Origin: Sclerodactyla briareus
Lineage: Eukaryota; Echinodermata; Holothuroidea; Dendrochirotida; Sclerodactylidae
Length of the DNA stretch: 64,000 nt
Direction of reading: 5' to 3'
Assembly (NCBI GenBank): GCA_026419785.1
Contig: JAODTK010000555.1
Span: forward strand, 62,001-126,000
The stretch's first letter is position 1; each line of letters begins with the position of its first letter. The notes under the pieces were generated by a model. That model was not told the origin of the DNA. It searched no databases and worked only from the letters and a program-made list of their open reading frames with translations. A program made the translations under genes and the position numbers. Below are positions 17,153 through 64,000 of this stretch, in pieces.

Positions 17153-17299
17153 CGCCTACGGAGGTAGGAGAGGGGAAACGGAGAGTGGCATCGAACTGTG
17201 CCTGGGGTACTCGAATGAGGCGGTCTTCCCGCTGTAGGACGCTCAGCAAGGGAGGACGTCCTGGCCCTAGCTGAAAAAATCTGGACACACGTACAGCGG

Positions 17300-24238: not shown

Positions 24239-24396
24239 CCTTCAAGAACTTCCAGTTCATCCCTCAACTCTTCCACTTTATGTTGTGAGCTTCTTCAAGC
24301 TGTTCAAGGTTGATTCATGGAAAGCTGCCAGCTTAGTTCAAGAGCTTCAACCTGTTGTATCAGTCCCTCCTTCTGCTCCTCAGATCCAGCTTCTCT
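24239..24396 (-). CDS. Coiled-coil exon, possibly C-terminal part of the KNL1-like gene
   Basis: The minus strand has a good acceptor (ttattattatattcag ending at 24,397) and a consensus donor (GGTAAGG from 24,238). Between them the sequence encodes heptad-rich helix: E-E-Q-K-E-G-L-I-Q-Q-V-E-A-L-E-L, then L-E-Q-L-E-E-A-H, then V-E-E-L-R-D-E-L-E-V-L-E. Two one-base frame changes are needed to read all three blocks, so the exon is either mis-sequenced or decayed. Coiled coil is expected in the C-terminal half of KNL1, encoded by many small exons in vertebrates. The assignment rests only on strand and order and is tentative. Confidence 0.5.
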
Positions 24397-24796: not shown

Positions 24797-24799
24797 TGT

Positions 24800-41399: not shown

Positions 41400-44300
41400 A
41401 CCACATTCTCCAAATCCCAGTTACAGTCTGGGTTCAGTTGGAACTCTTCCTCCATGGGATTCGCCATCATACTGTATCCAAGATGTTGGCAGGAAATGTC
41501 AATCCCTCCAGCAACGGTCTCTAGAGTCCCCTTCTCGTGCCATGCTCCGGTTGTGCTGCTCCTGGAAGGATCGTTTATCCTCGTATCGATACGAGGAGCA
41601 GACACCGTACTCGTCTCCAGGGTGAACGTGTCTGAATCTCTCATTGTCGATGCGTTGATCTATCGACTGTTATTTTTCGCAGTCTCATGCGCTCCACCCT
41701 CTCATAAACATTGTCTTGAACTTCGCATGACCAACTGAATATTCTCTGCTGGCACTGGAGCCCTGGGTCTGGTCATCAGCTGCATTATATGAGGTATCCT
41801 GGACCCATCTACAGTGCTGCCAGTACCAGGCTTGGACTTCTTACATGGTGGGGGTCATTCTAACTCGCCAGATGCTGATTCAGTCTCCCTGCGCTGTGAC
41901 ATGGGTCCGGTTCATTTTCTCCATTTGACCCACCTTCAAATAGATCAGTATCATTAGGCTCCTGTAGTGGTAAATCAAGAGATGGAGTTTTTTTCGAATT
42001 CCATTTGATGAAGTTCTCAAATTAATATAATGAACACCGTACTTCTGTGAAGTAGCAATACGGCAATCGATGCACTGATCTCAGAACTCCCAGCTCTTCA
42101 GCTGTTTTCTCAGGAAATATTTTCGTGCGATCCTGATGGTTAAAGCTGTGGACGCATTCTCAGAAGACCAGCAAATTCCCCGTTAGTTCTGATGCTGGAC
42201 AGATGTAAATCCATTTTTGCCAGATCATCAGCGCCAAACGGGTCCGTTCATCATAACATCTCTGTCCATCTCCATGGATATTTGGTTTGTCGGGTCCCAG
42301 TATTGGGCCAAACTCTGTGGTGAGAGGATACACAGGCTGTACATCTCCATTCCAGCCGCGGTCACATCTCAGAACTCAAAGGGTGCTCACACAGGCAGAA
42401 GACCAACAAGATCCTGGCGTCACTGGCGTGCCTCCACTCTGTTTGGATGGGCAGAGAGTATGCTTTCTGCATTCTCTGTCGTCTACATTAGAGTCAAGCA
42501 AGCTGTCATGTCCATGCCCGATCCTCAGCGCCGTATCTCTGGGTAAGTTCCTCAGTGGTCTTGGAGTGGGCTGGGAACATTTCCAGGCATTGTAATCTCT
42601 ATACCCATTTAAGATCAGTGTCAAGCAAGAGTCATTTCCATGTCCAGCACCGCTCCATTCACAAATCTTCTGGTATGATCATTCTGAAGCAGTATGGTTA
42701 TCTCCGGAAGTGGTGCTGGAAACATTCCTACTATGTGTGGCTCTCTCTTGACGTTTGAAGATTAGAAGAGGTTATGCAAGTGGTCATTTCCATTCCAGCA
42801 GCGTCATCTTCCCCGAATCGTTTGTATGCTCTCCTGAAGTTGTCTGTCCACTTTGCAAGTCAAGATGCCAGCCGGCTGATTTGCTCTGGATTACATTTTC
42901 CTCTCAATTCCTTTGTGAAGGGAGGATTAAAGGGGTCATCTCCATTCCACCCCCGCTCTCACCCCACAAAATCGCGGGTATATGTTCCTCAGAGGCAGCG
43001 ACATTGTATGAAATGGTCCTGTGAAATCCGCTCGGGTTCAGTAGTTCCATGTCTTCCTATTACCTACCAAGTTGGAGGGGACACAAGTTGTCATTTCCAT
43101 CCCATGCAGCATCCTATCCCAAGAATCGCCGGGTATGTTCCTCCCGGTAATCACAGTCAAACGCAACAGATTTGTCAGAGGCAATTTGGGGCTCTGCGTT
43201 TCTTTCTGTCAGGGTCCTGTGCTCGCATCCTCAATCCTTTCACCAGAGATCTGCTCACCCTTCAACACGGAGCTTCCAGGTCCCAGATTGGAAGCAGAAC
43301 CTCAGGAGCCAAGTTCTCCTTGGCTATTTAACTTTGTACCCTGAAGTAAGACAAGTGGTCATTCCCTCTCCAGCGGCGTCTCATCATGGAAGCGCACAAG
43401 TATGTTTCACTTCCGTGTCAGAATCCATTCTGCCTAAATTTCCTCCCACTAAAATTTTGGGTGTGTGTCTCTTATCCTAATCCTGGAAGGAATTGATAAT
43501 AGACAAGTTGTATTTCCATGCCTGCATTTTTCAATTGGGGCCGGAATCTTCCAGTGTGTCACGAGACAAAGTTTGGGGACTGTTCTTATGTCCAGTGCAG
43601 ACTGGAGGTTTGAGGTGAGGCAGCGCGGTCATTTCCATCCAGCAGTCTCATCACTGTCAAACCTTCTAGTTTGATCATCAACAGCAGTTCTGGAAAGCTT
43701 CTTCTCCTTGCAAACCTCAGTTTGGTGATCTGAGGTCAAACTAGCAGTCATCTCTGTGACAGTGACTCCCTCACTTACCCTCTCTTTGGTCTGATCACCC
43801 GAGCCAGACTTGAGAGGCTGTGTCCTGGTATCAGGTCCACTCTGGAGTTTTGAGGTGAGGCAAGCCGTCATTTCCATCCCAGCAGTCTCTTCGCTTCCAA
43901 ACCTCCTAGTCTGCTCGTCTGAGGTCACTCCCAGATTCTCGCTTCTCTTGTCCAGTTTACCTTGAAGGTTTGAGGTTAGGCAAGCAGTCATCTCCATGCC
44001 AGCTGCATCATCTTTTCCAAATAGCTGGGTGTGTCTCTCAGGATCTGATAACTGCTCATGCAGTTTTCCTGATGGAATACTCCCTAATTCTGTCACAGCA
44101 GGTACTACAGGCTTCTTTGCTATCAGTGCTGCATTTTGACGTTGCTGGGCTTAAAGGGATCAGTCATCTCCCTTTTTTGCCTCCTGCTTCCCCTGGTATG
44201 CCTACACGACCTTGGTCCATGTCAGAGATTTTTGGTACCACTTCTCACAGAGAGTTTATCGCTAGTGCTGTCCAGCAAGTCATCATTCAGTGTCATCGCT

Positions 44301-47086
44301 GAATACTTCACACCAGACGTTGAATCCAGCAGTGACGAATGCAGTTCAGTGGTAGACCCCAAGCCTTTCTGGTAACCACCTGATGATAATCGTGGATGTT
44401 TATTCACTGCAGGTTTTGAAGAACCTTCATCACCCTCCCTCTCTCCAATATGAGGGCCTGCAGCCCTGGAAGGTTTCTCTTGAAACAGTCCGACCCTGGC
44501 TTTGGAGGATTGGGACTTATCCAGAGATTTCAGTGCTTCCAATGCTCTCTTTGTTTTCTCAGTACTGCCCTTAAAACTCATGTTCCCCTCAATAACTTGG
44601 TTGGTGGAATCCCAGTTGCGATCTGCTGCTGCACTGATACACTCTGGATTCCCCAGGCTTGCTTTTGATTGCAGAGGATGGGAAGAAGACTGATCGTCTC
44701 CCCATGTGATCGTTTGCGTATAGGTGTGTGCTGTCAAGAGGACCGTCCCCTTTTGGTAAGTGAGGTATTCACCAGAGGTCCAAGTTGGGTCCACTATATC
44801 AACCTTCATCTTGGTCCCGACATGATCCCTTTCCATTCCTGCACAAGCCTCCGCTGCTAATCACTTAATTGCTCTTTGCCCAGTCTGGATATCATTTCCA
44901 TGCTAGCCTGGGCAGCACGGTCCTCTTCAATTTGACTGGTATCATCAACTCCACTACTCTCTTGGGACTTAGCCTTTGCTGCCAACCAACTGTTCATCAG
45001 GGTCTTCACCAGATCAGGACTTGTTTCAGCCTCACCTGCTTCCGTCTCTCTGATGCTACTTCCGACTCTTTGGTGGACTTTGGATTTCATTTGCTTGCCT
45101 TTCATCAGTGATTTGGCTTGTGTCACTCCCCAAGTTTCCAATGGTAGCCATCTCCTTGTTGTCAGGGAAACTGCTAACATTCTTTTTATCCACATCCCCC
45201 TCTACATAGCCCCTAATGTCAACGAGAGTCTTGTCATCATCATCTACGCCTTTCACTTGCATAAATTTATCAAGAGCTCTGCAGGCCTCCTAATTCAATG
45301 TGGGACACTCTAGCCATGTCTGTCTGTTCCTGCTGACCGACCTTTGAAGCAGTGACTGTTCCTCTTGACTGCTGTATGCACCCAGTCATATCCATATTAC
45401 CAGTCATGTCATCTGACATAAATACCCTGGTCAGTTCCTTCTGTTCCTGATGACCAGTCATTGAAGCAGTGACTGTTTCTCTTGACTGCTGCATACATCC
45501 AGTCATCTCCATATTACCAGTCATGTCCTCTGATGTGAATCTTCTGGTCATGTTGCTCTGTTCTCGGTAAACCATTCGTTTGAAGCAGCGACCATTCCTT
45601 CCGATGGATGTATACATCCAGTCATCTCCATATTCCCAGTCATGTCATCTGACCTAAATACCCTGGTCAGTTCCTTCTGTTCCTGATGACCAGTCATTGA
45701 AGCAGTGACTGTTCCTCTTGACTGCTGTATACATCCAGTCATCTCCATATTACCAGTCATGTCCTCTGATGTGAATCTTCTGGTCATGTTGCTCTGTTCC
45801 CGGTGACCAGTCCTTGAAGCAGCGACCATTCCTTCCGATGGCTGTATGCCCCCCGTCATCTCCATATTCCCAGTCATGTCATCTGATGTGAATACCCTGG
45901 TCAGTTCCTTCTGTTCCTGATGACCCCTTTGAAGCAGTGACTGTTCCTCTTGACTGCTGTATACATCCAGTCATCTCCATATTACCAGTCATGTCCTCTG
46001 ATGTGAATCTTCTGGTCATGTTGCTCTGTTCTCGGTAACCATTCTTTGAAGCAGCGACCATTCCTTCCGATGGATGTATACATCCAGTCATCTCCATATT
46101 CCCAGTCATGTCATCTGATGTGAATCTTCTGGTCAGTTCCTTCTGTTCCTGATGACCAGTCATTGAAGCAGTGACTGTTCCTCTTGACTGCTGTATGCAC
46201 CCAGTCATATCCATATTACCAGTCATGTCCTCTGATGTGAATCTTCTGGTCATGTTGCTCTGTTCTCGGTGACCAGTCCTTGAAGCAGCGACCATTCCTT
46301 CCATGGCTGTATACATCCAGTCATCTCCATATTACCAGTCATGTCATCTGACCTAAATACTCTGGTCAGTTCCTTCTGTTCCTGATGGCCAGTCATTGAA
46401 GCAGTGACTGTTCCACTTGACTGTTGTATGCACCCAGTCATATCCATATTACCAGTCATGTCATCTGATGTGAATACTCTGGGAATGTTGCTCTGTTCTC
46501 GGTGACCAGTCCTTGAAGCAGCGACCATTCCTTCCATGGCTGTATACATCCAGTCATCTCCATATTACCAGTCATGTCATCTGACCTAAATACTCTGGTC
46601 AGTTCCTTCTGTTCCTGATGGCCAGTCATTGAAGCAGTGACTGTTCCACTTGACTGTTGTATGCACCCAGTCATATCCATATTCCCAGTCATATCATCCG
46701 ATGTGAAGACTCTGTCATTCTCGCTGCTCAACTTCAAACAGATGATGCTCACCACAGTTAATGAGGTATTACTGAGGGAGCTACTATTGTGGAAGGTGCT
46801 GCCATGGAGGCTTATAGAATCTGAGGAGTCCCATGAGGGCACACTGAAGGTTATATAGTTGGAACCCAAGAGGCCAAGTTTATCGCAATATAGCTGCTGG
46901 GTCACTTCATCAGCCACAGATGCCCTCCTTCCGAGGTGACTGCAGTGGGGCCTTGGTCATGCCTGGGTTGGGCCATATTTTGTTGGATGGTCCGGTCATA
47001 GCAGGAGGTCATTTCCATGTTCCCCTGGTCAGAGTCGACATTGCTGCTGAACAGGATGGTCTTCTCTGATACCTCTTTCTTGGCTG
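41400..47086 (-). CDS. KNL1: KNL1-like kinetochore scaffold: large MELT-repeat exon
   Basis: The exon starts after a good acceptor (tgttcttatttttctcacag at about 47,087) with A-K-K-E-V-S-E-K-T-I-L-F-S-S-N-V, soon followed by N-M-E-M-T-S-C, a textbook MELT module (aromatic residue, Ser/Asp, then M-E/D-x-T). At least 25 M-E/D-M-T motifs follow: a tight array (45.36-46.70 kb), a looser array (42.25-44.01 kb) and a last G-I-D-I-S-C near 41,500. In KNL1 the MELT threonine is phosphorylated by MPS1 and recruits BUB3-BUB1/BUBR1 for the spindle checkpoint (known biology). About nine frame shifts interrupt the exon (near 46,925, 46,535, 46,302, 45,930, 45,575, 45,285, 45,075, 44,860, 43,630). In each case the adjacent frame continues the repeat, so sequencing indels are the simplest explanation. 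The end is placed near a GTTTGAG donor at about 41,400. Confidence 0.82.
42250..44010 (-). repeat. Second MELT array, loose ~120-160 bp units
   Basis: Minus-strand motifs G-M-E-M-T-A-C-L-T-S at about 43,992, 43,868 and 43,629, T-E-M-T-A-S-L at 43,749, then more diverged copies near 43,514, 43,355, 43,090, 42,940, 42,782, 42,635, 42,508 and 42,336. The flanking consensus differs from the first array: D-x-Q-T-R-R-F-x-S-x-E-T-A-G-M-E-M-T. Spacing is less regular, so this array is probably older. Confidence 0.75.
45360..46700 (-). repeat. First MELT array: twelve ~117 bp (39-residue) units, two alternating types
   Basis: M-E/D-M-T codons recur at about 46,670, 46,555, 46,438, 46,320, 46,203, 46,088, 45,970, 45,858, 45,740, 45,620, 45,502 and 45,385. 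Type A carries G-H-Q-E-Q-K-E-L-T-R-V-F-R-S-D-D before the motif; type B carries G-H-R-E-Q-S-N-M-T-R-R-F-T-S-E-D. A and B alternate, giving a ~234 bp higher-order unit. Every unit also has D-M-T-G-N immediately before M-E-M-T-G-C-I, a second M-T core. Near identity between units points to recent expansion or gene conversion. Confidence 0.88.
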
Positions 47087-47089
47087 CTG

Positions 47090-48035
47090 TGAGAAAAATA
47101 AGAACAAACTGATCACTAACTGGTTTACCCAATTGCACCTATAGTAGTCACCTCCCCTACTCCTCTGCTCCGACGCAAAGCAAAAGAATCAATTTATCCC
47201 TAAAAAACGTCCATCCTCAGATCTGCCTGCCCTCCTCCCATGCGCAGAAAGGCTATTCAAACTATGCTAAAGCCTACTGCAAAGTGCAAACAATCATCTC
47301 TTCCTGTGAAGCATGATCAGACTTTTCGAATGTGAATGTAAGTTCCATGCACGCTATTATTTTCATTAACCAATGACTCGGAGGCTTCACTGCAATTTAA
47401 AAATTTACCTTCAATAAATGCCCCCTGTTTTGGTAATGCAATTCCTGACAGGTTTATTGGGAGAAATACATTAGGTTTCTTTTTCTTTCACTCTTTTGGT
47501 ATTGACTTGAACTCTCCTGGATGTAAGTGAGATGTTCTAAGCAAAAATGGTAAATGTTTCAGACATACTACTATAAAAATGCAGTAATATGCTCTTCATA
47601 ATTTAAACTCAGTAACACCTCAGCCTTGGCACCAGTTAAATCTTCCCTGTTGTTCATACCAAGGTACAGTGGCATGCATGATGGAGGCATTTTCCCCCAA
47701 GGGTCGGAGGGGGGGGGGGGGGTGATAAACTAATCAGGGGTAATTAGGAAGCAGTTTGACACAGTAAGAACAAGAAGGAGTATAATTTTTCCCCCTGCCT
47801 CCCAAATTTTTGGTCAAAAAAAAAATACATTCTTCATGTATTCATGCCCGAACCAGTGCCCTATCCTACAAATCAACCTGGTATGCCTCCTTAGAATGCC
47901 AGGCTTCTGGTTACCCTTGTAAAAGGCTACCTACATTTCCTCCACTTCAGAGACATATTTTCTAATAGTGCACTAGGGCTATGGTTATACACTGAGCTGG
48001 CTGATAGAGTTTTGAATTATTTCAGCTGCAACAAC
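47090..48035. other. Intron of the KNL1-like gene
   Basis: Lies between a donor-like GTAGTT at 48,038 and the acceptor at 47,087. It holds a poly-G run near 47,709-47,724 and otherwise AT-rich sequence. Confidence 0.55.
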
Positions 48036-48038
48036 TAC

Positions 48039-48217
48039 TTTGTCTCTTTCTCTCCCGGGATGTTATCATCCTGAAGAAATCTGACATGGTCTGAGGCTTG
48101 TTGGGTGCTTGCTGTGGTTGGAACTCTGTCGATTCTTGGGGCGTTAGCTTGAACTCTCTATCTGCTCTAGCATGCACCTCTGATTCCCTGCTCGTTTCAG
48201 GGGATTCAGGATAGGAT
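48039..48217 (-). CDS. KNL1-like gene, upstream exon with duplicated module (copy 2)
   Basis: Acceptor cgctttctttag (ending 48,218), possible donor AAA|GTAGTT at 48,038. The frame is open throughout: S-Y-P-E-S-P-E-T-S-R-E-S-E-V, then T-E-F-Q-P-Q-Q-A-P-N, then K-P-Q-T-M-S-D-F-F-R-M-I-T-S-R-E-R-K-R-Q. The end phase (one base over) joins in frame to the MELT exon's A-K-K-E-V-S start, which supports the model. It would be part of the disordered N-terminal region before the MELT repeats. I do not see the expected PP1-binding S-I-L-K or R-V-S-F motifs here. A diverged copy of this module is at 49.7-51.3 kb. Confidence 0.6.
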
Positions 48218-49741
48218 CTAAAGAAAGCGACAGAAGCAACGATCATTTTTACAGTGGTAGCATCGCATCTACAAGCTTCAGGGGAGACTAGTGATGGTCC
48301 TACAGCCTATATAACACAACTTTCTTCACAATGAAGCTTTTCATAGAGCAGTTGCAGGTAAGAGTATTTGCAAACCAAAGCAGGTTGAGTTCTGGACCAT
48401 GTGGCTCTCATTTACTGAAGGGGTTATGAGAAAGTGTTTCATGGTGCAATTTAAACATGGTTAGGAAACACACAACAGAACGTAAATTAATTAATTCTGT
48501 AATGCTACTCGGCCTAGGCCCACATCGCTTAGTTATAAGCACAGGCCCAAGTGTGTAGACATTTTGTGGGGAAACCATCGCAGTCAGAGTTACCCTAACT
48601 TGTAATTCCATGGAACTTTGTAAGGGCAATGCGCAATCACACAGTGCAAAAACAATACAAATGATTCAATAATACGACTGGAATGCATCTAGCAGGAACA
48701 TAATCCAGGCTGAATTACAAAACCACAGAGCGATAAGAGGTGATTATTGGGGTGCTTGAAGCCAAATGGGCTCTCGAGCATATCCTCTGTTAAAATGACT
48801 GAATCATCACAAAGGGGGGCCAATCTACCTGCATCTCTAAGAGGTAAAGGGGCACTGTGTCGAGTACATAGCGTAGATCGGCCAGTACCAAAAGCCTTCA
48901 AATTATTCAAGACTGAAGGTAGATCATATCCACCAAGTTTCATGAGTATCCAACAAGCTTTGAAGAAATGCACAAGTTATATGTCATCACCAAAACATCC
49001 TCTGATTATGTAATATCTTGTACACAAGCTTTTGGGCAGATAATCACAGCAGCGTGATAACCCTTGACCATGTGCCCCCCACACAACATTTCAGCATGTG
49101 ACAATTCATTCCCGGTTCAGGAGATATCACATATGCACAATATTATTTGAATCAGATACTGTTAATAACAATTTGCATGAATGATGCCAATTAGACACTT
49201 TTAATGACCTCCAGCCAACCTGGCTTCACCATAAACATTCCCACAACCAAATTATAACACTCCATAAACAGTATGGGAATCAGATGACTTTCGTAATTTG
49301 CAATAGTCATGCAATTAGTCACATGAAATTCTGTTACCTCAACACTACTGTTGTATCTCGGGAACTGAAGTTGACCAAACCCCCCCCAGTCCATGGAATT
49401 GAACATCCTTTTGAAAATAGTGTAAATCATGCCAAAACTAGACAACTTTGATAACTGGCATGTGTCTCATGCTTCCACAGGTATAAGTTGGGAGATTTTT
49501 TAAGGATTGTCCCTCAGGTGGCACGCGCCATTGGAAGGCCGGCTCGCCTTTTCCAAGGTATACAATATACTGGCAATGACATGACATACGGAATATTTTC
49601 TGTCAGGAGTGATCTCACACTGAACTACTACCAAGCTACTCACACAGGGGCAATTGGACACCCACTAATGATCAGGTTCTTCTCTAATGGGCGCTAAAGG
49701 GACCTTCGTTTGGGAATGGTAACATAAACACAGAATCTTAC

Positions 49742-49882
49742 TTTGTGTATCTTGGGAGGTTTATCAATCCTGAAGAATCGACATGGTCTGAGGCCTTGCC
49801 TGACCCCTCACCATTGGCAGTCTCCTGGGGTTGGAAGTTATTCCCACTGAATCCCTGTTTGTCCTCAGAGAACTCGGAGAAT
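49742..49882 (-). CDS. KNL1-like gene, duplicated exon (copy 1, second half)
   Basis: Both splice sites are canonical (gtcttctgcag ending 49,883; AAA|GTAAGAT at 49,741) around 141 bases. The open frame reads F-S-E-F-S-E-D-K-Q-G-F-S-G-N-N, then F-Q-P-Q-E-T-A-N-G, then D-H-V-D-S-S-G-L-I-N-L-P-R-Y-T. In DNA it matches 48,060-48,120 (tcctgaagaa, gacatggtctgaggc, ttggaagt), but an extra G shifts the frame after F-Q-P-Q, so the conserved K-P-Q-T-M-S-D-F-F appears in another frame. Its phase (2 in, 2 out) fits the exon at 48.0 kb. Confidence 0.55.
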
Positions 49883-51196
49883 CTGCAGAAGACAATGTAT
49901 CGAATATTGATCACTAGTAGATACAGAGAAATTGATTCACGTTCCAGAGCTTACATAAAGCAGTTCCTGAACAACAGATGTTAAATATTGATTTGATGTC
50001 TAGGGGTTCAGGAACCAAGTAAGGCTCATCTAGGAACCCTAGCCTTTTTTTCCTGACTAGAAGTCCTACACCTTTTTCTTCATTATTCCATAACTTACAG
50101 TTTTTTAGCCCCAAATGTAATGGCTTCCTAGGACTTCCACCTGCTCATTTAGACCAATCTTAATTGCACATGTGTGCTACACTTAACCATTCAAAATGTT
50201 GCTCTGATGTGTACATTTCTATTTATCCCTTGTATTTATTCTCCTGAAAATGTTCATCCTTGACCAATTAATGGCATGTCCTCTAGCTCACCATTAACCG
50301 GATCCCCATTTATTTTGAGAGAGGACATGTTTAATGTCACACTCAGTATATCCCACAGTTCCACACTCTGCCATAACACCAGTCTTCACTATTTGACCTG
50401 ACATTCATCCTGACATCAATTGCTGCCACACACCAGCTCTCCCTGTATTATGGCCACTCACCCACTCTTCATGTCAGCCCTGTATCGCCCATCCACACAC
50501 ACTATACAGGCAGGAAGCCAATAGCTTATACTATAACCCAGCAGAGTGTAATAGACTTGAAAAAATTGGGCAAGTCTATATGCTTCAAATGAGAATATGA
50601 ATGAAGGTCATGCTCAACAACATAACAAGAAATGCATATTATATGTGGTCCACGACTGTATTGGTTTTCCATCTCCCCAGTAGTCATTCCTTATAAAGGT
50701 GTGGGAGACCATTCATGGGCATATTTACAACAACTAGCCCACAGGCGTAACTACGCATTCAACTGTTTTCACTACATGTACACTACATGCGTTCTTTACT
50801 AGTTTGTTTGTCCAAGTAGTGCACCCAGACAAATTGGGACGATGGCTTTGGGACAAAGGTGTGTCACCTGGACCAAGAATGAAGAAAACAGCTTCCAGGG
50901 CAAAAATTGGTGCATTATGTCATAATGCCTTCTGAACTGACTAAAATCAAAACCTTCAGTGTAAACATTGTAAAGCGTGATCATGTTAGCTCTTGTTGTC
51001 GAAATAGCTTTAATCGAATTCATTGTTCATTTTTTCCAACAATTCTTCATCCTGGCATGCTGTTGGTTCACTGTGTGCTCCACAACCTTTGAGCACGCAC
51101 ACACCAAATTTGGATCATTCGAAAAAGCTGCATGTTGTGGAACATACTTGAGTGATCTCATTAAATCTTTGGATAAAGAAGCACTAGAATACTCAC

Positions 51197-51267
51197 TGTT
51201 CGTCTGGTCGTGGTTCAGGTTGTTGTGTGCATGGTGAACATTGGGGCTGTCCGGAGTGTATCTAAAC
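51197..51267 (-). CDS. Small exon upstream in the KNL1-like gene (copy 1, first half)
   Basis: Acceptor gttttctgcag (ending 51,268) and donor A|GTGAGTATT (51,196) bound 71 bases in a single open frame: R-Y-T-P-D-S-P-N-V-H-H-A-H-N-N-L-N-H-D-Q-T. The Y-T-P-D-S-P start resembles S-Y-P-E-S-P of the exon at 48.2 kb, so this exon plus 49.7 kb may together equal the single 48.0 kb exon. Its end phase does not match the 49.7 kb exon, so an indel or a missed exon lies between. Position on the 5' side of the MELT exon suits an N-terminal KNL1 segment. Confidence 0.5.
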
Positions 51268-51639
51268 CTGCAGAAAACCAGAAAGCCCAACATGCTCAGA
51301 GTGAGTCCTTGACTGAACCTGACCTGGTCGAGCCGAGCAGAGCATTGCCAGTTTCATGTTTACAAGGAACCACATGCGTTGACCTTAGAATTAGCCCTAA
51401 AACAATATTGTTATGTACTCATTATGGGGAACTCACTAAGCTATAACTGATTTCATCATGGTGAGGCTGGCCGAAATTGGCCAGAATATCACAATTGCAC
51501 AATTTTCCAATTTTGTTGTTCAATCAAAGAGCCAAAAGCTTGGTGATTCCTTGAATGATTCTGACTTGATCGAGCTAAGCACTGGCAACTTGCTTGCAAA
51601 ATTACAAAAACAGGGACTAGTAGTAACTCATTATGGGGA

Positions 51640-53800
51640 ACTCACATCCAAATTATAAATCAACAGAAAGCCAAAGCTTAGTGATTCCTTGACTGTTTCT
51701 GCCAACCATACCGACAAGGGCCAAATTGAGATAGTACCAGCTCATTCTGGGACATAACGTCTGACAATTTCCTATCTTTAACCAACCAACTATGGGTTCT
51801 GTACCCTTGGTAAGAAAGCTACAAGGTAAAACCAATTTCAAGGTGTTTAGACTTTGAACTCTGGTAACCTTAGCTGACCTCCGACTGACCCCAAACAATA
51901 GGGTTCATGTACTCCTCATGGGGAATACATGAACCAAGTATGAGCCTCTTCACCCCGCTTTACCAAAACCATAGGGTTCATGTACTCCCCTAGGAAGATT
52001 CACACCTAATTTCAACTGACCAGACCCACCGTTTCTGGACTTATCGTGTTACAAGGTTTTCAGACTTTGACCTCTAGTGACCTCAGATGATCTCTGACCT
52101 AACCCTAAAAACAGTATGGTTCATGTACTTATAATGGGCAACAAACACCTAAGTTGAGCTTCATCCATCCAGGTGGGGTCAAGTTATCGTGTTTTACCCA
52201 GCCAAAATTGTCCAAATCAATTTTCACAATTTCTATTTCGATCAAAATTCACTCCTGACCTGAACCAAAAGCAATAGGGTTTCCGTGTACTCCGGATAAG
52301 AAAGCTATACACCTAATTTCAACTTGATCCGCCAACCATCTGGACTTCGGTTACATGTGTTTTCAGACTTTGACCGCCCGGGTGACCTCTGATCTGACCC
52401 CAAAACAAGAGGGTCATGTACTCATCATGGGGAACACACATACCAAGTATGAGCTTCATCGCTCCAGGTGGGGTCGAGTTATCGTTTGGGGTTTACAACC
52501 AAAATTGGCCAAAGATCGAATTTCACAAATTTTCATTTTCGACCAAAATTCCCCCGACCTGCAACCAAAAACAATAGGTTCCTGTACGCCCCATAAGAAT
52601 TCTATACACCTAATTTCAATTTGATCATACTCAACCATTCTGGACTTAATCGTGTTTACAAGGTTTTCAGACGTTGACCCTCTGGTGACCTCATATGCCT
52701 CTGACCTGAACCCCAAAACAATGGGTCAATGACTCATCATGGGGAAACCACAACCAGATGAGCTTCAGCCATCCAGGTGGGGGTCGATTATCGTTTTAAA
52801 GTAAATTGGCCAAAATATCAAATTTTCACAAATTTTTCTATTTTTGACGAAATTCACCCCGACCTGAACCAAAAACAATAGGGTTCCTGTACTCCCGGCA
52901 TAATAAAGCTAGACACCTAACTAGATCAACTTGATCAGGACCAACCATTCCTGACTTTCTTGTTTACATGGTTTTCAGCTTGACCTCTGGGTGATTCAGA
53001 TGACCCGACTCTTGACCAGACCCAAAAACATAGGTTCATGTACGCATCATGGGCAACACACATACCAAGTATGAGCCTAACCTACCCAGACCTGATCAAG
53101 TTATCGTGTTTACAAAAGCTGGGCGTCACACAATCACACAACATGACTGCATACATTCCCAGACTTCAGTCAAAGAATAAAAATCCACGGTGGATGTCTT
53201 GTCAACAAGCTGAAATCAGTCAAAATAATAATTTTTCACAATATCCCCGGTCTGCACTAAAAACAAGAGTTTATGTACTCCCGTGAGAAGATGCATACCA
53301 AATTTAAAACTGATTAAACCAGGGAATTAGGAATTTATAGTGTAAACTTTCACCTCTCCGCCTTGACATGACCAGGAAAACAATAGGGATAATGTACTGA
53401 TTATGGGAAACAAAATACCAAATATGAGCTTCATCAGGCCAGGTCGGGTCGAGTTTCGTGTTAACAAGCTAAAAAATTTGCCATATATCAATTTTCACAC
53501 TTTTTTTCTTCTAAGTGACCCCAGTTATGCCCAAGAAACGACTATGGTTCCTGTAATCCCCATGAGAATGCTTGCAAGCCACATTTTGACTGATCAGACC
53601 AGGTATTCTGACCCCAAAATGATAGGGAGACGTCTGTACTATTATGGCGAAACCCATATAATAAAAAAAAAAAGTATGAACTTCAGCATCCAGGTGGTGT
53701 TGCGTTATCGTGTTAAAAAACAAGGGCTAGGCCTCACATACATTTACGAACACACACACTGTCATTCAATCCATAGATTCCTTTGACTTTGTCGAGGAAT
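51640..53800 (+). repeat. Tandem array of the ~305 bp repeat family, copy 1 (about six units)
   Basis: The landmark 'ccatccaggtggggtc...ttatcg' recurs near 52,168, 52,466, 52,770, 53,085, 53,435 and 53,690, and 'aatagggttcatgtactc' between them. The array starts with a distinctive 'agatagtaccagctcatt...aacgtctgacaa' block and contains a near-terminal 'acctacccagacctgatcaagttatcg ... gctgggcgtcaca' block, both also found in the array at 57.2-59.4 kb. It closes with 'catagattcctttgactttgtcgaggaat'. No coding. Confidence 0.88.
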
Positions 53801-53814
53801 GAAAAATTAAACTT

Positions 53815-54640
53815 GTGTTAAACCTTGCAGTCAAAATTCGCAAGGCAATGCGGCATATGACAAGATGAAGCCGCTTGGAGTGGAAAGGCCTGCTTCCATC
53901 GCTACACACTGTGCAGTCATGCGGAGACTCTGGGTCTGACCCCAAGCTTCAGCAGATAGCGCAAAGTATGAGGCAGGCTCCTGACTTCCTATTTCCTGAA
54001 CTCTCCATATGTGTAGCAGCAGTCCCCAATAACACTAACTCTCACGATCTTCCTATTCCCAACTGTAGGCAAAGATGCACTTCCTAATTTTTCATGAATT
54101 GGCTAAAACAAGCCGCCACATAACCTTTTGCCCCGGGTTCATAAATACACCAAATGCCCATTCACTTGGTGATCAAGTTACAATGTGATCTCTCAAGACC
54201 AGGAAGAGTAACCGTTTGAATAAATTCCGATGAACGCATGAATGTACAGTATATTGTACAACCTTTGGTTGATAGTGCAATTTGCCCTATATGCTAGTTC
54301 ACGGCTATAGTTATTGAGATTATAATATTATGGTATCAAAGGTCATCGGGGTACGCTCAAAGCTGGCAGTTCATCATTCCCCTAACAGTGTGCAGAACAA
54401 TCTTTCAGCACTCTGATAAAAATTACACATCCTACCAGCATGATACTTCACAGATTTTCCCTCCAACTAATCAGCAATAAGAGAGTGAAACATGAGATGA
54501 ATTGATTTTGTTTTCAGAAAGTGTTGTGACAGGGAAAAAATGTAATGCTTAGCACTATGGAAAAATCTCATTGTTCGTTGGTGTACATGCACACTCACAA
54601 CCATGAACAGTCTTCAATACAGTGTTTGGTAGGTATTCTA
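53815..54640. other. No gene recognised
   Basis: Spacer after the array. 54,340-54,410 shares wording with 36,250-36,340. No splice-bounded frame. Confidence 0.35.
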
Positions 54641-54650
54641 TCTACTGCAC

Positions 54651-54778
54651 CTGTTATACAGTGCCCCGCTCCAGATGAGACTCCGGGCACAGCATGGCTC
54701 TGTCTCTTGAGGGCCGACTCGTCGACAGAGGACTCCAGAATACCAGCTCCCTCGCATCCTTCTCCTTTAATGAATTCT
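54651..54778 (-). CDS. Small exon, unidentified minus-strand gene (possibly KNL1 5' part)
   Basis: Acceptor tgttatcattccaacag (ending 54,779) and donor ACAG|GTGCAG (54,650) bound 128 bases. One open frame reads E-F-I-K-G-E-G-C-E-G-A-G-I-L-E-S-S-V-D-E, then S-A-L-K-R-Q-S-H-A-V-P-G-V-S-S-G-A-G-H. Its phase fits the exon at 56.9 kb exactly (TT|A codon). A second frame is also open almost to the end (A-R-E-L-V-F-W-S-P-L). It has S/T-rich disordered character. Confidence 0.5.
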
Positions 54779-54789
54779 CTGTTGGAATG

Positions 54790-55380
54790 ATAACAGAGGT
54801 GGATAGAAATGATGGTACCGGTATTAGGCTGGAGGACAACCATGGGATAAATTATAAAGAGGCTAACAGAATAGCTGCCAGAAAAACGAATGTGTCAGTC
54901 CAAACCCCGCATTCATAAAACCTTTCCTTACAGAGTTAGAGGCCTTTTATTGTCAAGATCAGTCACCTTTACTAAATAGATTTTTGAGAACACAACTGCT
55001 GAATGTGCAAATTTATGGGAGAGTCAACAGAAATTACAGATTTATCCTTCTCTCACACATTTCATAATTTCTTGCGATTCAATCTAGCCATATATCATTT
55101 TGAAAAGCCCAATTGTGTGATTTTGATAGTGAGATTGGTGGCATCACTTTTTTAATCTGGGTTCTAATAAAGGAAATAATATAGAGTGATGGGTCCGCAA
55201 TCAATTGAGACCATGCTTCTTTGTTTCTTATGGACAGAACGGGACAACAAATGCAATAGTCTTGTTGTTGGGTTCTGACAAGTTTGCCATTATATCCCTG
55301 TGACACTGGATGTGTTCGGGGATATTATGGATGGTTTTGGGTGTGTAGCTGCCGCCGTCACAGGCTCCACCGCCGGAACG
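54790..55380. other. Probable intron, no feature recognised
   Basis: AT-rich without a supported frame. Confidence 0.35.
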
Positions 55381-55389
55381 GAGAAAAAA

Positions 55390-55870
55390 TTTAGGCGTTA
55401 GCGCTTCAATGCTTCATCCGATTGATCTGAAACTTGGTAAACATGTCTGCCCTAGTGAAATCTTGGATGAGTTCGAAAGTGGGCATCACTGCATGTCTGC
55501 TGCCCTCTATTTTGCAGGTTTTACACGAAAATACTTATCCGATTTATACGAGACTTGGTGGGTGGGGACAAAAGTTAGTCCCGAATCACATGATGTTGAT
55601 TTCAAAGTCACCAGAGGTCAAATTTGTGTTTTTTTCCACAATTTTTCCAGCTTTGTTGGATTTCAACAAAACTCGGTGGATGTGGACTGTTGTTAGTCCT
55701 AAATAAAAACAACATGAAGGTAATTTCAGGGTCACAGGAGGTCAAATTTGCCTAAATCATGCAATTTGTTTGTTGTCTTTAAACAAAACTTGGGGAACGT
55801 GGACTACAGTTGGGCCTGAACACCGGTAGGCATTTCAAAGTCACTGGAGGTCAAATGGACTTAATATAAT
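55390..55870 (+). repeat. Dispersed non-coding repeat, ~100 bp sub-units
   Basis: The cycle 'aacttggtggatgtggact...gttagtcc', 'tttcaaagtcac', 'aggaggtcaaattt' repeats about four times with a ~105-130 bp period. It is a relative of the repeats at 7.2-7.7 and 30.5-30.8 kb. The open frames at 55,409-55,706 are products of this repeat. Confidence 0.6.
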
Positions 55871-56880
55871 GTGCTTCCACAAAGGCTGTTTCTGCCGGGT
55901 TATACCGACGACGGTTTACCCCCCGGCTCATGTCTAGTTGCACGTTGTATCTGTTGGGAATTATTATACCATAACAGGCCAGACATTGCAACTTTAATAC
56001 CTATCTACTAGCTCCAATCTTTTGGGTCCTAGATTTCCCTTGAGCTGGCTCTACACCAACACCAAAAGCTGTAAATTGTTGAAGGAATAAACACAGTTTT
56101 GCATGCATTTTGTGGTGCATGATGAACCAAATATTGTTTGAATTTTTCAACTTTTACAGAAGACAGGACTAGAGCAGTGCAAGTGTATATTTTTTATACT
56201 GACATGTCATCCTGAAAAATGTTTCAATTAAACTGTTGGGGCAAGAAAATACTTTTTACCAAAGTTTCCAAGATGTGGAACTGTCCATAGATGCACATCT
56301 AAAAGGGGCTCACAGTAAAGTCCTGCAGTTGGCAATCATGTACAGGTACTGGCAAAAATCCAAAAAAGATTTGAATACTACTTGACTTCATGAGTGTTAG
56401 CAAAGTGACCCGCTTGGATGACAGCCGATCCACGCCTCTTCCTCTGTTTTTCTGAAATTACAAGCAGAATTGTTGAATTTCAACCATTTCAGGGGAAAAA
56501 TCACCAAATCACTCAGACCAAGGACACCAGGTTCTTGTAGATATATTCACTGCACCCATCTTCAGGAATACCCACTATTCTCTCCAAGTCATGGGATATT
56601 AGACTGACCCCTTGGCCATACTAACTGGACTGTGTACCGCAAAAATACAGGATTATTAGCTGATCATGGATTCATGCCACTCACCAAGATATGTACTCCA
56701 TAAGCACTTATCAGAACCCTTGGGTGCAGCAGTTTTTCATCTATATTATATGTATCTAACCTCATGATAAAATGGTTACCATAATAAAGTGGGAAACCCT
56801 CGGTATCGGAGTCTGGGTCGTCCAGAAGAAAAGCTGTCCTTACCTGGCAATGTAAAATGACTACAAAGCCTATTTCTCAC
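55870..56880. other. Probable intron, no feature recognised
   Basis: AT-rich without a supported frame or repeat. Confidence 0.35.
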
Positions 56881-56991
56881 AATAACTCAGCAGCACGTCC
56901 AATTTTAAATTCTTTGCTATGGCGTCTGGCTGCAGCCTGGTATCGCCTGCAGTGCAATTCGTACAAGAGGACCGCCCCAAGTATCTTGCCC
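56881..56991 (-). CDS. Small exon, unidentified minus-strand gene
   Basis: Acceptor cggatgcgcaaaaccag (ending 56,992) and donor TT|GTGAGAAAT (56,880) bound 111 bases. The favoured frame encodes a basic helix: G-K-I-L-G-A-V-L-L-Y-E-L-H-C-R-R-Y-Q-A, then A-R-R-H-S-K-E-F-K-I-G-R-A-A-E-L-L. It joins in phase to the 54.65 kb exon. Two other frames are also open, so the frame rests on protein-like composition and phase. Function unknown. Confidence 0.45.
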
Positions 56992-57189
56992 CTGGTTTTG
57001 CGCATCCGAAACAAAGATAATAACCACATCTACCAAAATCATATACATCAGTAAAACTTGGTTGCCACCCCTAATGTCTTCCATGGCCCTGGCTTTCTCA
57101 GTGAAATTGTTCACTATTAACAGATGGACCCCGTCTGAAAACTTTCATGTAAACCAAACAAACTTCAGAAATGTGCATGATTATGCAAA

Positions 57190-59400
57190 AGTCACATTAA
57201 CCCGAAAGCCAAAAGGCTAAGGAATTCCTTAACTGATTTTGATCAACCCATATCCAGACACAACGGACAAATGGGAGATAGTACCAGCTCATTATAGGCA
57301 CCTAATAACGTCTGACAAATCCCCTATCTTTACCCAACCCTATCTGGTTCGCTGTATCTTGGTAATAAAGCTACACACTAAATTTCATTGCCTCAAGGTT
57401 TTCAACTTTTGAACTCTGGTAACCTTGATAACACCTCCGACCTACCCCAAAATAATAGGGTTCAGTTACTCACTGGTGAATACCACAAACAACTTGAGCC
57501 TCATTCACCCCGCCTTTACCAAAACAATAGGGTTCAAATGTACTCTCCCCATAAGGAATATGCACACTAAGTTCATCTATCAGACCTGGTCGACTTATCA
57601 TGTTTACCACGTTTTTTCAGACTTTGACCTCTGGTGACCTCAGATGACCTCTTGAACCTGCCCCTAAACAAGGGTTTCATATACTCAATCATGGGGAACA
57701 AACACACCAAGTATTACTCATCCATCAGTGGGGTCAAGTTATCGTTTTTACAACCAAAATTGGTCTAGAATCAATTTTCACAACTTTTCTATTTTCGTGA
57801 TCAAAATTTCACTCCTGACCTGCGCCAAAACACAGGTTCCTGTACTCCCCATAAGAAAGCTTTAACAAAACCTAATTTCACTTGATCAACCAACCATTCG
57901 TGATTATCGTGTTTTACAAATGTTTCAGACTTTGACCTCTGGTGACCTCAGATGACCTCTGACCTGACCCCAACCAACACTAGGGTTCATGTAACGCAAT
58001 CATTGGGACACACACACCAAGTATGAGCTTCATCCATCCAGGTGGAAGTCCGATTTCTCGTTTACAAGCCAAAAATTGGCCAAAATATCGATTTTTCACA
58101 AATTTTCCTATTTTCGACCAAAATTCACGCCTGACTTGAACCAACAACGATAGGTCAATGTACTCCCCATAAGAACGCTATACACCTAATTGCAACTGGA
58201 TCAGACCAACCATTCTGGACTTACCTACCGTGTTTACAAGGTTTTTCACAGCTTTGACCTTGTGACCTCTGATCTGACCCAAAACAATAGGGTTCATGTA
58301 CTCATCATGGGGAACACACATACCAGTATGAGCTTCATCCATCAGGTGGGGTCATTTGCGTGTTACAAGCCAAAATTGGCCAAAATAATATCGAATTTCA
58401 CACTTTTCTATTTCGACAAAATTCCACTCCTGACCTGAACCAAAAACGATAGGGTTCCTGTACATCCCCATAAGAAAGCTTTACACCTAATTTCAACTTG
58501 ATCAGACCAACATTCTGGACTCACCGTGTTTACAAGTTTTCAACTTTGACCTCTGCGGACCCTCTGACCCGCCCCCAAAACAATAGGGTTCATGTACTCC
58601 AGTCATGGGAACACACATACCAAGTTGAAGCTTCATCCATCCAGGTGGGTGAGTTAAGGGTTTTACAAGCCAAAATTGGCCAAATATCGAATTTTCATCA
58701 AATGTTCTATTTTTTTGAACCAAAATTCACCCCCACCTGAACCAAAAAACATAGGGTTTCCTGTAGTCCAAATAAGAACGCTATACACCTACTTTCAACT
58801 TGACAGACCAACCATCTGGACTTATCGTGTTTACAAGGTTTTCAAGACTTTGACCTCTGGTGACCTCAGATGACCTCTGACCTGACCCCAAAACAATAGG
58901 GTCATGTACTCATCATGGGGAACACACATACAGTATTAGCTTCATCAATCCGGGTGGGGTCCCGAGTTATCGTGTTTACAAAGCAAAATTGGCCAAATAT
59001 CAAATTTTCACACAAATTTTCTATTTCGCCAAAAATTCACTCCTGACCTGACCAACAACGATAGGGTTCTGTACCCCCCATAAGAAGCTATACACCCAAT
59101 TTCAACTTGATCAGACCACCATTTCTGGCCTTAACGTGTTTACAAGGTTTTCATACTTTGACCTCTGGTGACTTCAAATGAACCCTGACCTGACCCAAAA
59201 ACAATTAAGGGTTCTGTACTCATCATGGGAACCACATACCCAGTATAGGGGCTTACCTACCCAGACCGGATCAGTTATCGTGTTCAAGCTGGGCGTCACA
59301 CCAACACATACCCACAACAACGTACACAACAACACGCGCACACGCACACACACACACGACGTGACTGCATAGATTCCTCTGCTTCTGTCAGGATAAAAAA
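57190..59400 (+). repeat. Tandem array of the ~305 bp repeat family, copy 2 (about seven units)
   Basis: The same start block ('agatagtaccagctcatt', 'aacgtctgacaa') and end block ('acctacccagaccggatcagttatcg', 'gctgggcgtcaca', 'gactgcatagattcctc') as 51,640-53,800, with an extra unit: landmarks near 57,725, 58,035, 58,340, 58,645, 58,955 and 59,265. Internal CA-repeat near 59,335-59,365. Units differ by many small indels. No coding. Confidence 0.88.
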
Positions 59401-59985
59401 TGACCTGCAGTGAACTTGGATCTACTGTTGAATTAAACAGGATGAAGGAAGACCATATACACAGAGAGTTGTAGAAATGGAACAACCTCATGAAAAAAGG
59501 CTAAATTATGCCAACAGACTACTATAGCAAATACTTATCCACAAAATATATACATATGCAAATTCATGGAACCTAGTCAATCGGGCTTGTAAAAATGAAC
59601 TGTGGGGTGACACTTAATTTGTTCGCTTGATCCGATCGTCCCGTGCAGGACTTTGGCAAAATCCCATGCAGGGGATATAAACACCAAGAGCAGTTCGTGC
59701 CAAACTAACAAAAAAATTAACAGATTGATGAGAACCGTGTTGACATTTTACTGTTCTTAGTGGGTCTCAAACCACAACCTCATGGTTGGAAAGGGCTGGA
59801 GGTTACTACCCAGAAGTGTGCACCTTCACACAAAATTGCGCATGAGGGCATTATGCTCAAAGAATCCGGTGCACATATTCATGGCAGACAAAACACAGAA
59901 CCAAGGGGACCGCTATGTCTCTCCTGGACTGAAATCCTGGGAGAGAAAACCATGATGGTACGAGCAGCCTTAGAGTGACAACCGT
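59400..59985. other. No gene recognised
   Basis: Spacer or intron between the repeat array and the 60.0 kb exon. The plus-strand frame at 59,760-59,978 is antisense and unsupported. Confidence 0.35.
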
Positions 59986-59987
59986 AC

Positions 59988-60075
59988 CGTATGTCGGTAG
60001 TTGTAGCTTCTGTGTCATCCGGCTGTTGTCATCACATTCAGCCAAGGCCTGTATGAGGGAGCAGACCTTCAGTAT
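59988..60075 (-). CDS. Small exon, unidentified minus-strand gene
   Basis: Excellent acceptor (cttcccctcctctccctcag ending 60,076) and donor TACG|GTACGG (59,987) bound 88 bases, open with no correction: I-L-K-V-C-S-L-I-Q-A-L-A-E-C-D-D-N, then S-R-M-T-Q-K-L-Q-L-P-T-Y. It looks like a helical segment of a folded protein. It starts in phase 0 and ends in phase 1. It may belong to a gene upstream of the KNL1-like gene or to its 5' end; the phase does not fit the favoured frame of the 56.9 kb exon, so at least one exon between is missing if they are joined. Confidence 0.6.
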
Positions 60076-60199
60076 CTGAGGGAGAGGAGGGGAAGATTTT
60101 CTGATGAATCGGGTACTTAGCGAATGCGGAATGCTTCTATGATGCTGCGCCAGGCGCCAGGTCAAACCTATGTGTATCTATAGTTTAAAGGCTGTATGG

Positions 60200-60640
60200 A
60201 TCAATAATAGCTAAAGTAACAAGATACCGATAATGTGAACTTTGTTGAAACCCGGTCGCATAGAGTTTGTAGGTCATATGGGGAATGACTGTACGCTAGC
60301 CAACACACTGAAATGCTATGTTTATTTGAATACAAAGGCTATGATTCCCCGCTGCAATACTAATGTCAAAATCTTGCACAATCGAACACTTCTTCTTTGA
60401 AATAGGGCCAATTTCCACGCCTACTAGAAAATACTTTTACTGATATGTTATAATGCTAATAAGTGAATTGAAGCCAATTTTAAACGGAAATGAGATTAGT
60501 GCTGTATCTTTCATCCTTTCTAAGGCCAACTAATTTTTTCAAATGTTCGGGTGCTTGATGTTTTCTCGAGACCTGCAGCCGTTCTGCTACACTGTAATTC
60601 TATGCAATTCAGCTCACATTAGGAAAAATTCATGAAGATC
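60200..60640 (+). repeat. Dispersed repeat, copy 2 (pair with 2.4-2.8 kb)
   Basis: Diverged same-orientation match to 2,380-2,790 through 'ggtcatatgggg', 'gctagccaacacac', 'aatgctatgt', 'gcacaatcg' and 'gcagccgttctgctaca'. Non-coding. Confidence 0.55.
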
Positions 60641-60950
60641 AGTGGACAAGTGCGTTATAACCCCAGAACTTCTGTGTTTGGGTTATCAGTTGTTCCAGTC
60701 CAATGACATCACAAGGGGAATCAAATGATTGCTCCTTTGAATTTACACAGTAATTTCTATTTTTTCACTCATTTCATAGGCGAAAGTGCATGAAGGATAA
60801 TTTTGCTTCAAGTCAATGAAGCTCACAGGATCACGGCCAACAGGGTCTAGTATGTGGATGTGTTGTGTGTGAATGCTTCGAAGTTCTACGTATGCTGGCG
60901 CAATCTTGCTAAACTAAATCATAAAAACACTTGGACCCTCAATATTTTAT
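60640..60950. other. No gene recognised
   Basis: Spacer before a short repeat element. Confidence 0.35.
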
Positions 60951-60954
60951 TCAG

Positions 60955-61090
60955 TGATTTTGGCATCAATTTTAAGAGTAAAATTAATAATAACTATATA
61001 GCGCAAACTCCCACAAAAGAGTTGTTCAATGCGCTTTACGGAGCTGAGAGTGCAGTAGAAACAATAGGGAACTGGGAAAAAGGACAGTTT
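60955..61090 (+). repeat. Short dispersed element with 'tatatagcgca ... gcgctttac' core
   Basis: 'aataataactatatagcgcaaa' followed about 35 bases later by 'caatgcgctttacgg' is a wording seen in abundant short repeats of many marine invertebrate genomes (from general knowledge). Only one copy is in this window. The open frame 60,854-61,108 over it is not a gene. Confidence 0.45.
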
Positions 61091-61289
61091 CTCAAAAACA
61101 ACGTATGAAAAGCACAATAGAGTCAAGGACCTCAAACAACCGAAGAAGTTCAATAGCAGGAAAAAATAGTTGATAAAGCTACGGTGACGGTTCGAATATG
61201 TTTTTGTTCGAGCCCTGGGAACCTGAAGTTATTAATGAAGATGGGAGCGAATAGGTCGTGACTCGTCACGGGTGTAGCACATTATGTAA

Positions 61290-61402
61290 ATGGCTGGCGA
61301 ACCAGATTCGATAGAACAAAATGCAATCAGAGGTTTACAAAGTAGTATGCTACTCCAGATGAAAGTATTGCACTCCAGAATCTTCTCCTCCTCTTCCGAC
61401 CA
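61290..61402 (-). CDS. Possible exon beginning with a SANT-like start
   Basis: A very good acceptor (ttcttgctccctcttacag ending 61,403) opens into W-S-E-E-E-E-K-I-L-E-C, reminiscent of the first helix of Myb/SANT domains (W-[ST]-x-E-E-x-x-x-L). After this the frame becomes unlike a SANT domain, and a second frame (R-K-R-R-R-R-F-W-S-A-I-L-S-S-G-V-A) is also open. The end is not determined. Treat as a candidate only. Confidence 0.3.
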
Positions 61403-61659
61403 CTGTAAGAGGGAGCAAGAATAAAATATTGTGTTAGCAAAGGATTTAGGGTGAGGGCCTCCTACGATTGGGGAAAAGGAGGACATCAGGCAAGCAGTTA
61501 ACAAGAAACATGAGGGTATTATCGGCAGGGCAAGGTGATGCCATTTACCCAATAGTTCTCTGGGCTGGCAGTCATCCGAGAGGGCAAGTAAAAAGTCAAA
61601 TGCAAGGTTTCAAAGTTTCAGAAGGGTTACCTCTGGCTAAGTACAGCCACTTGACTTAA

Positions 61660-62310
61660 TAAACATCACTCTAATTATGATTAAGGTCAATTGGTAGGGA
61701 TCATCTATTCATGCGGGAAACAAATACATATATGAGCTCCATCAACTCATACCTGATCAAGTTATCATGGATACCTAGACACAGAAAAATTCTGTATTGT
61801 GTGCATTATATGGTAGCTACAAGTACAGTGATCATGTGAATTTCAGCTGATAAAAGTGAAAATAGGCACAATTCAACAACATCAAAGGAACCTTTGTAAT
61901 GAAGCAAATGCAAAATACCTTTGAGAAGCCTCTGACAAATGACTATGATTGGCAACTGGATAGAAAACATTTTTCGTGAATCTTTTTCTCTTTTTTCTGT
62001 TATCAGCGAGTAATACACTTCTACAGCTTGAATTAACTTTAGGGGGGAAACTGGATATGAGGTTCATTTTATGTGAAATAACATCTACAGGACCAGAAGA
62101 AAGGCCAAATTGAGGTCTTCAACCCAGTGATATTGATCATAGATGAGCACAGATGATAACTAGACTTCCTCTCTTGACCAGTGCTCAGATGCTCGAGCAG
62201 GGCGGTTACCAATCCCAAACTGCTCCCAGGACCGCTCTATTGTATGCCCCATCTCATGATCTGACTCCAGGACCCTGACCCACTTTCTTGGGTCCTGGAG
62301 GAGCAGTGGA
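61660..62310. other. No gene recognised
   Basis: AT-rich, with one weak 'accaagtt-tcatccatc'-type remnant of the ~305 bp family at 61,720-61,790. Confidence 0.35.
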
Positions 62311-62455
62311 AGTTCAAGTTAAATCGTGAATGCTCACAGCTGGACCGCGAGACCAATTGCACAAAAACACATAATCCCAGGAAAGTTCACGCATTGCGCG
62401 GAGACATGAAGTAGTGAGGAACAGACCTTGACAACACAACTGCAATGCAAAGACA
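62310..62455 (-). CDS. Possible terminal exon, unidentified
   Basis: A pyrimidine-rich acceptor (cgttttttctctggtggctgtctttgcattgcag ending near 62,441) is followed by an open frame with L-R-A-M-R-E-L-S-W-D-Y-V-F-L-C-N-W-S-R-G and a stop at about 62,314. A second frame is open for about half this length. It is too short to identify. Confidence 0.25.
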
Positions 62456-62459
62456 GCCA

Positions 62460-63630: not shown

Positions 63631-63639
63631 CTTTCCGAC

Positions 63640-64000
63640 ATGCTTTTGAACGTTATAGGAAGAGTACAATCATTATGGGTGATTCAAATTATCAGATATG
63701 TATTGGTCTGATGGCAATAGTGGCAGTCCATGGATCTGGCTTCTTTTCAATGTCACGCAGGAGTGTTTCCTTTCTCAGCATGTCATTTTCTACCAGAAGC
63801 ATAATATTTTGGATTGAGTTTGAGCAGATGACCCAGATTCTGTAGATAATGTAGAATGCTTGGGTAAGCTCGGTGCAAGTGATCACGATATTTTAGCTTC
63901 AATGTGTCTTGTTCCGTTAAATCCCACAGAGTGTAGAGCTGTTCCTTGTTCGCGAAGGCAATGTCGATGGCACTTCTAGGTTTTTTAGCGAAATAGATGG
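63640..64000 (+). mobile_element. LINE endonuclease fragment, runs off the window
   Basis: Plus-strand pieces match the end of the apurinic-like endonuclease of CR1/Jockey-type LINEs: M-Y-W-S-D-G-N-S-G-S-P (usually D-W), F-N-V-T-Q-E-C-F-L-S-Q-H-V, N-I-L-D (usually N-x-L-D-L-V), A-D-D-P-D-S-V-D-N-V-E-C-L-G, and the catalytic-site G-A-S-D-H-D-I (S-D-H block) near 63,875. After the S-D-H block a frame gives N-V-D-G-T-S-R-F-F-S-E-I-D, as in the linker before RT. Stops and frameshifts occur, so a dead copy; the RT would lie to the right of the window. Confidence 0.78.

Follow-up and report, generated by a model that had tools for sequence, protein, structure and literature searches.

The feature described here is a large exon on the minus strand of a 64,000-nucleotide window (the whole stretch of DNA that was analyzed; C551:62001-126000, from GenBank contig JAODTK010000555.1) of the sea cucumber Sclerodactyla briareus, the assembly of which (GCA_026419785.1) comprises 319 Mb in 3171 contigs. 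It carries two arrays of MELT motifs, one tight and one loose, and starts with a founder-like module (KTILFSSNVDSDQGNMEMTSC). Read from the sequence, this is very probably the BUB-recruiting middle exon of an echinoderm KNL1 (CASC5/Spc105), in which an older array would have decayed, a pair of modules (A-B) would later have been copied, and the breaks in the reading frame would be errors of the assembly. The 5′ border at 47086 is a clear acceptor and the 3′ end, near 41400, is approximate, with degenerate sites continuing 3′ of the loose array down to a GIDISC near 41506 (Table 1). An original prediction had already given these coordinates, the founder MEMTSC, the terminal GIDISC, the array of twelve units and the looser array, and all of these were recovered; the strand of the gene is an addition. 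In humans, most MELT motifs likewise lie in one giant exon.

Table 1. Coordinates within the window of the exon, its parts and a candidate neighboring exon.
Feature	Coordinates	Strand	Evidence
Large KNL1-type exon with both MELT arrays	41400..47086	minus	acceptor, frame-by-frame reading, 21 M[DE]MT motifs
Splice acceptor ttatttttctcacag (end of polypyrimidine tract plus cacag)	47087..47093	minus	sequence, directly upstream of 47086
Founder-like MELT (MEMTSC), with TILF 42 nt upstream	47007..47018	minus	motif list, alignment to human MELT consensus
Tight array, twelve 117-bp units in six pairs of ~234 bp (TRRF/TRVF...DDMTGNMEMTGC)	45323..46714	minus	Tandem Repeats Finder, unit alignment
Inter-array spacer, long open pieces, without strict MELT	44200..45322	minus	frame reading, motif list
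Loose older array, T-x-x-aromatic plus MEMT units, ~120-bp period at its start	~42504..44030	minus	Pfam PF19221, motif list
Terminal GIDISC, degenerate MELT-like, weak candidate	41489..41506	minus	frame reading, motif list
Candidate coiled-coil exon REAGSEEQKEGLIQQVEAL...KVEELRDELEVLEG, flanked by acceptor and donor sites, reading frame interrupted	24239..24396	minus	composition scan and reading

The minus strand of the exon holds 21 strict motifs (M[DE][MLIV][ST]; one in the founder, 12 in the tight array and eight in the loose array), compared with 0.56 on average and at most three in 200 dinucleotide shuffles, and the plus strand of the same interval holds none. The total of at least 25 MELT motifs that had been claimed is reached when four degenerate sites (TEMT at 43757, GMTT at 43365, MEIQ at 43519 and REMT at 44173) are included, but the strict count stays at 21. 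Weaker candidates are MEMI (44901), MEMY (42350), MEMD (42275) and GIDIS (41506); GMTK at 46963 was set aside as a likely chance occurrence. The companion motif of KNL1 MELTs, TxxΩ (searched as T..[FYW]), which also precedes MELT in KNL1 of humans and other metazoans, was found, in one frame or another, 24-60 nt upstream of 19 of the 21 strict motifs (in shuffles, 0.09 on average and at most two), and for 15 of the 19 it is in the same frame as the MELT. The spacing is 42 nt in the founder, 36 nt in ten tight units and 32-34 nt in six loose units, with 54 and 29 nt in two other loose units. The two tight units that lack TxxΩ (46680 and 46447) have D and P in place of T.

The strongest profile evidence comes from the loose array. 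The minus-strand interval 43632-44150 is a single open frame of 173 amino acids, and matches the Pfam MELT family (PF19221) with E 4.9e-10 and 39.5 bits, above the curated cut-off of 30; the segment comprising the founder and the first tight unit scored 10.7 bits, below it. When the MELT profile was run across the assembly, three of the four matches listed fell at the KNL1 locus, among them the two with the best E values (0.011 and 0.25), and the fourth was a weak match on another contig (C2364), each single match being under the cut-off. No second copy of the exon was found in the assembly with protein, DNA and MELT-profile queries. The founder (EKTILFSS...MEMTSC) resembles the human consensus DKTILFSEGDDMEITRSHTTAI, as printed in PMC10577578, and six aligned peptides (the founder, two tight units, two loose units and the human consensus) all have the same T, F, M, E and T. 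It is because of the match to the MELT profile, the grammar of TxxΩ plus MELT and this uniqueness, and not because of the C-terminus, that we place the exon in KNL1; the KNL1-like identity originally suggested is thus well supported by profile, spacing and likeness of the founder to human.

The tight array had been described as twelve near-identical units of 39 residues. There are indeed twelve, with a 117-bp period, but they are of two types that alternate, with mean DNA identities of 93% among odd units, 86% among even units and 78% between odd and even. Because a 233-bp period gives a better fit in Tandem Repeats Finder (93% matches) than the 117-bp period (78%), the main repeat is a pair of 78 residues, present six times. 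The six pairs are 82%-97% alike, pairs 1 and 2 being closest (97%) and pair 6 most distant. Unit 12, although in an even place, is 80%-85% identical to odd units compared with 74%-78% to even ones; it has an even-like start (RVF.SDD) followed by odd-like sequence, and thus looks like a hybrid of the two types. Tight units of the same type reach 98% DNA identity. For three loose units that share one frame, the values are 51%-61%, with 11-20 of 40 residues in common, and by this measure the two arrays differ greatly in age. This bears out part of the proposal that the gene expanded its repeats at least twice, independently, but "independently" is too strong: both arrays share a TxxF...G(N)MEMT core, and comparison of the MELT cores of five tight and two loose units (32-37 of 60 bases in common) argues that they probably trace to one type of module.

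The young array was held as a constrained protein during its growth, as follows from an excess of variable columns at third codon positions. Across the 12 tight units, positions 1, 2 and 3 contain 9, 11 and 27 variable columns (27 of 47, p 0.0006), and the odd units alone contain 2, 3 and 12 (12 of 17, p 0.002), the p values being a guide only, as related units are not independent; the even units contain 8, 10 and 19 (19 of 37).

The arrays also differ at the position that corresponds to the threonine of SHT, the motif that follows MELT in vertebrates. No unit reads SHT. Four of the eight strict loose units (43997, 43877, 42793 and 42515) nevertheless have a threonine at the SHT-Thr position, for example MEMTACLT, and two further ones are frame-broken there, whereas none of the 12 tight units does (10 have Q and two have H); the founder has D. 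From these residues, tight units are predicted to bind BUB1 more weakly than loose units, or under another rule. More tentatively, and with rather more doubt than confidence, we suggest that BUB proteins may have docking sites of two chemically distinct kinds within this one KNL1. The old sites would combine TxxΩ and MELT, frequently together with an SHT-like threonine; the young ones, made as copies of the A-B pair, would keep TxxΩ and MELT, lack the SHT threonine and have a second T in [DE]DMTG immediately ahead of the motif. A-B copying would then be a route by which checkpoint gain is altered even today, and might differ between individuals.

Several results weigh against the assignment to a functional KNL1. 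On its own, the tight array remains below the PF19221 cut-off. Searches of the PDB with three pieces (the loose open frame, the tight open frame and the founder segment) retrieved no KNL1, though the library includes full-length human KNL1; the sole return for the loose frame was a flagellin (E 1.4). Differences between loose units at codon positions 1, 2 and 3 show a clear third-position excess in one pair (10, 12 and 25) and barely one in two others (19, 17 and 23; 14, 22 and 22), a flat pattern that is as expected from saturated old differences, yet gives no support for constraint. Pfam searches of the stop-masked window, translated in all six frames apart from minus 44001-46399, gave no match to the C-terminal RWD domain (PF18210), proposed at the outset as a check on the identity; their power was low, the MELT array itself attaining no better than E 0.0068 in one of them. 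No convincing PP1-binding SILK/RVSF pair was seen on the minus strand at 47000-64000, and the first exons may be further off. To these is added a deletion common to two tight units, considered below. Separately, in L007, upstream of the exon, RVTF (4237-4248) and SILK (5763-5774) occur on the minus strand about 1.5 kb apart, in the KNL1 order and with stops nearby, which may be chance.

Other searches for the rest of the gene gave similar results. Pfam found no RWD on the minus strand of the contig flanks (30 kb below and 20 kb above the window) or in ten segments picked by eye, and PF18210 had no match over the species' own assembly, where controls gave no signal either. With tblastn, the human KNL1 C-terminus (its sequence checked against PDB chains) gave no stronger matches to window positions 1-41400 than a reversed control, and RWD was not found when the window was searched together with L004-L008; the human N-terminus gave a weak alignment to the founder region (E 6.2). 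An RWD-like stretch seen by eye at ~21120-21040 (minus) was dropped when Pfam returned nothing. A coding scan based on hexamers, with this exon as part of its training set, had its top minus-strand peak in 1-41400 at 8365-8463 (17.4, compared with 80.8 in the array), and this is not KNL1 text. The coiled-coil-like exon of Table 1 is a candidate member of the gene; it has no Pfam match, and its similarity to the human KNL1 coiled coil is at noise level.

The exon is not a single open frame. Read frame by frame, it switches many times, and tight units 2, 4, 7 and 10 have indels of 1-2 bp relative to the consensus. Such breaks throughout the exon, together with the failure to find a C-terminal domain, are what would be seen if the exon belonged to a KNL1 pseudogene in decay and the functional gene were in genomic sequence that the assembly lacks. 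Also on that side, the same single base pair is deleted from both unit 2 and unit 4, as if a mutation had been copied; this deletion is unlikely to come from independent random errors, and may be either a genuine mutation that was copied or an error of a systematic kind. We nevertheless regard a pseudogene as quite improbable, given the third-position excess (constraint while the young array grew), the small size of the tight-array breaks, the absence of a detectable second copy, and the state of other genes in the assembly. For the G protein-coupled receptor (GPCR) family PF00001, 126 matches were listed, 93 of them on contigs with several matches; among these 93 were 16 adjoining, profile-consecutive pairs at 14 loci, all frame-switched (overlap ≤37 bp, gap ≤79 bp), partly by construction, as in-frame neighbors tend to merge, and some may be pseudogenes or contain short introns. 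HSP70 exons were tried as a gauge of frame breaks and were too short. Because breaks are common at the GPCR loci of this assembly, those of the KNL1 exon are most simply read as assembly errors rather than as death of the gene.

A different gene with MELT-like repeats, encoding some other fast-evolving disordered repeat protein, would account for the RWD domain not being found and for tight units with neither a Pfam match over a cut-off nor a match in the PDB. We judge such a gene very improbable, given that the loose array exceeds the curated MELT cut-off, the TxxΩ spacing is nearly constant and the founder resembles human KNL1. The number of tight units is a separate matter, and one that is compatible with the exon being KNL1: repeats may have been collapsed or falsely duplicated during assembly, so that the true array is longer or shorter. 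Pairs 1 and 2, with their near-identity and common deletion, could be taken in this way, especially in an assembly rich in frame errors; the units do, however, have private differences and the identities of the pairs grade from 97% down to 82%, so that we consider an artifactual count unlikely, if by no means negligible.

Elsewhere in the window, an exon for the sperm microtubule inner protein TEX43/SPMIP10 lies at 6787-6984 on the plus strand and is open over the matched 65 residues; its best PDB match is the Tex43 chain of 8snb (E 2.8e-26; the next TEX43 has E 0.023), an entry from sea urchin sperm. This match points to a deuterostome, most likely an echinoderm, whereas a search of the assembly for COX1, intended to give the mitochondrial code and through it the phylum, retrieved nothing. 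Positions 14000-20000 form a GC-rich block (58%-62% GC, compared with ~40%-44% in its surroundings). Both strands of the block carry long open frames that overlap and had no Pfam match at E ≤1, and a 254-bp tandem repeat lies at 17753-18245; the block is possibly a retroelement. A plus-strand open frame of 122 amino acids lies at 24700-25100, with a small peak in the coding scan at 24925-24975 (plus). Finally, a tandem array at 57614-59246 consists of 5.3 copies of ~308-bp units, and similar phrases occur elsewhere in the window.

If the exon is KNL1, the older TxxΩ-MELT array would have formed first and then decayed, and the A-B pair would later have been copied about six times into the tight array, with young units that keep MELT and mostly TxxΩ but not the threonine at the SHT position. 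The MELT threonine is a substrate of PLK1 as well as of MPS1. As described in PMC7614552, PMC6468716, PMC10577578 and PMC7292645, phosphorylation by MPS1 is followed by docking of BUB3-BUB1, TxxΩ (plus SHT in vertebrates) strengthens BUB recruitment, and signaling by the checkpoint and in attachment is tuned by how many MELTs there are. By analogy with published work on KNL1, the number and quality of modules in the exon would set the load of BUB1 and BUBR1 at an unattached kinetochore; in yeast and human cells, they set checkpoint strength (passages in PMC7292645 and PMC10577578). Echinoderm eggs and embryos are a classic system for studying cell division, and a KNL1 in which an old array accompanies a young one would offer a natural comparison of module types.

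Rapid turnover of MELT repeats in eukaryotic KNL1 was reportedly described by Tromer, Snel and Kops in 2015. Among the titles listed by literature searches on echinoderm KNL1, none dealt with it, which is weak evidence of absence. The copy number of MELT across organisms is given as 2 to 27 in the relevant passage of PMC7614552, with the 2015 study as one of its sources, and the 21 strict motifs here are high within that range, not beyond it. In budding yeast Spc105, MELTs are likewise docks for BUB3-BUB1, the number and strength of which set checkpoint strength (as stated in PMC7292645), a role that is here read from sequence; yeast differs in having five or six motifs (figures in PMC7292645 and PMC7614552). 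Vertebrate KNL1 (CASC5/Blinkin) shares the T-x-x-aromatic before M-[ED]-x-T in repeated modules, but has MDLT/MEIT instead of M-[ED]-M-T. Priming through SHT is thought, in the account of PMC7614552, to be unique to vertebrates, and in place of SHT the best-kept loose units here have xCLT/xCIT and the tight units have xCIQ/xCIH and similar. Expansion of MELTs, repeated and accompanied by diversification, is an established mode of KNL1 evolution (discussed in parts of PMC7614552 and PMC10577578). The one distinctive trait of the present exon is its paired young array, a higher-order repeat that sets it apart from vertebrate KNL1.
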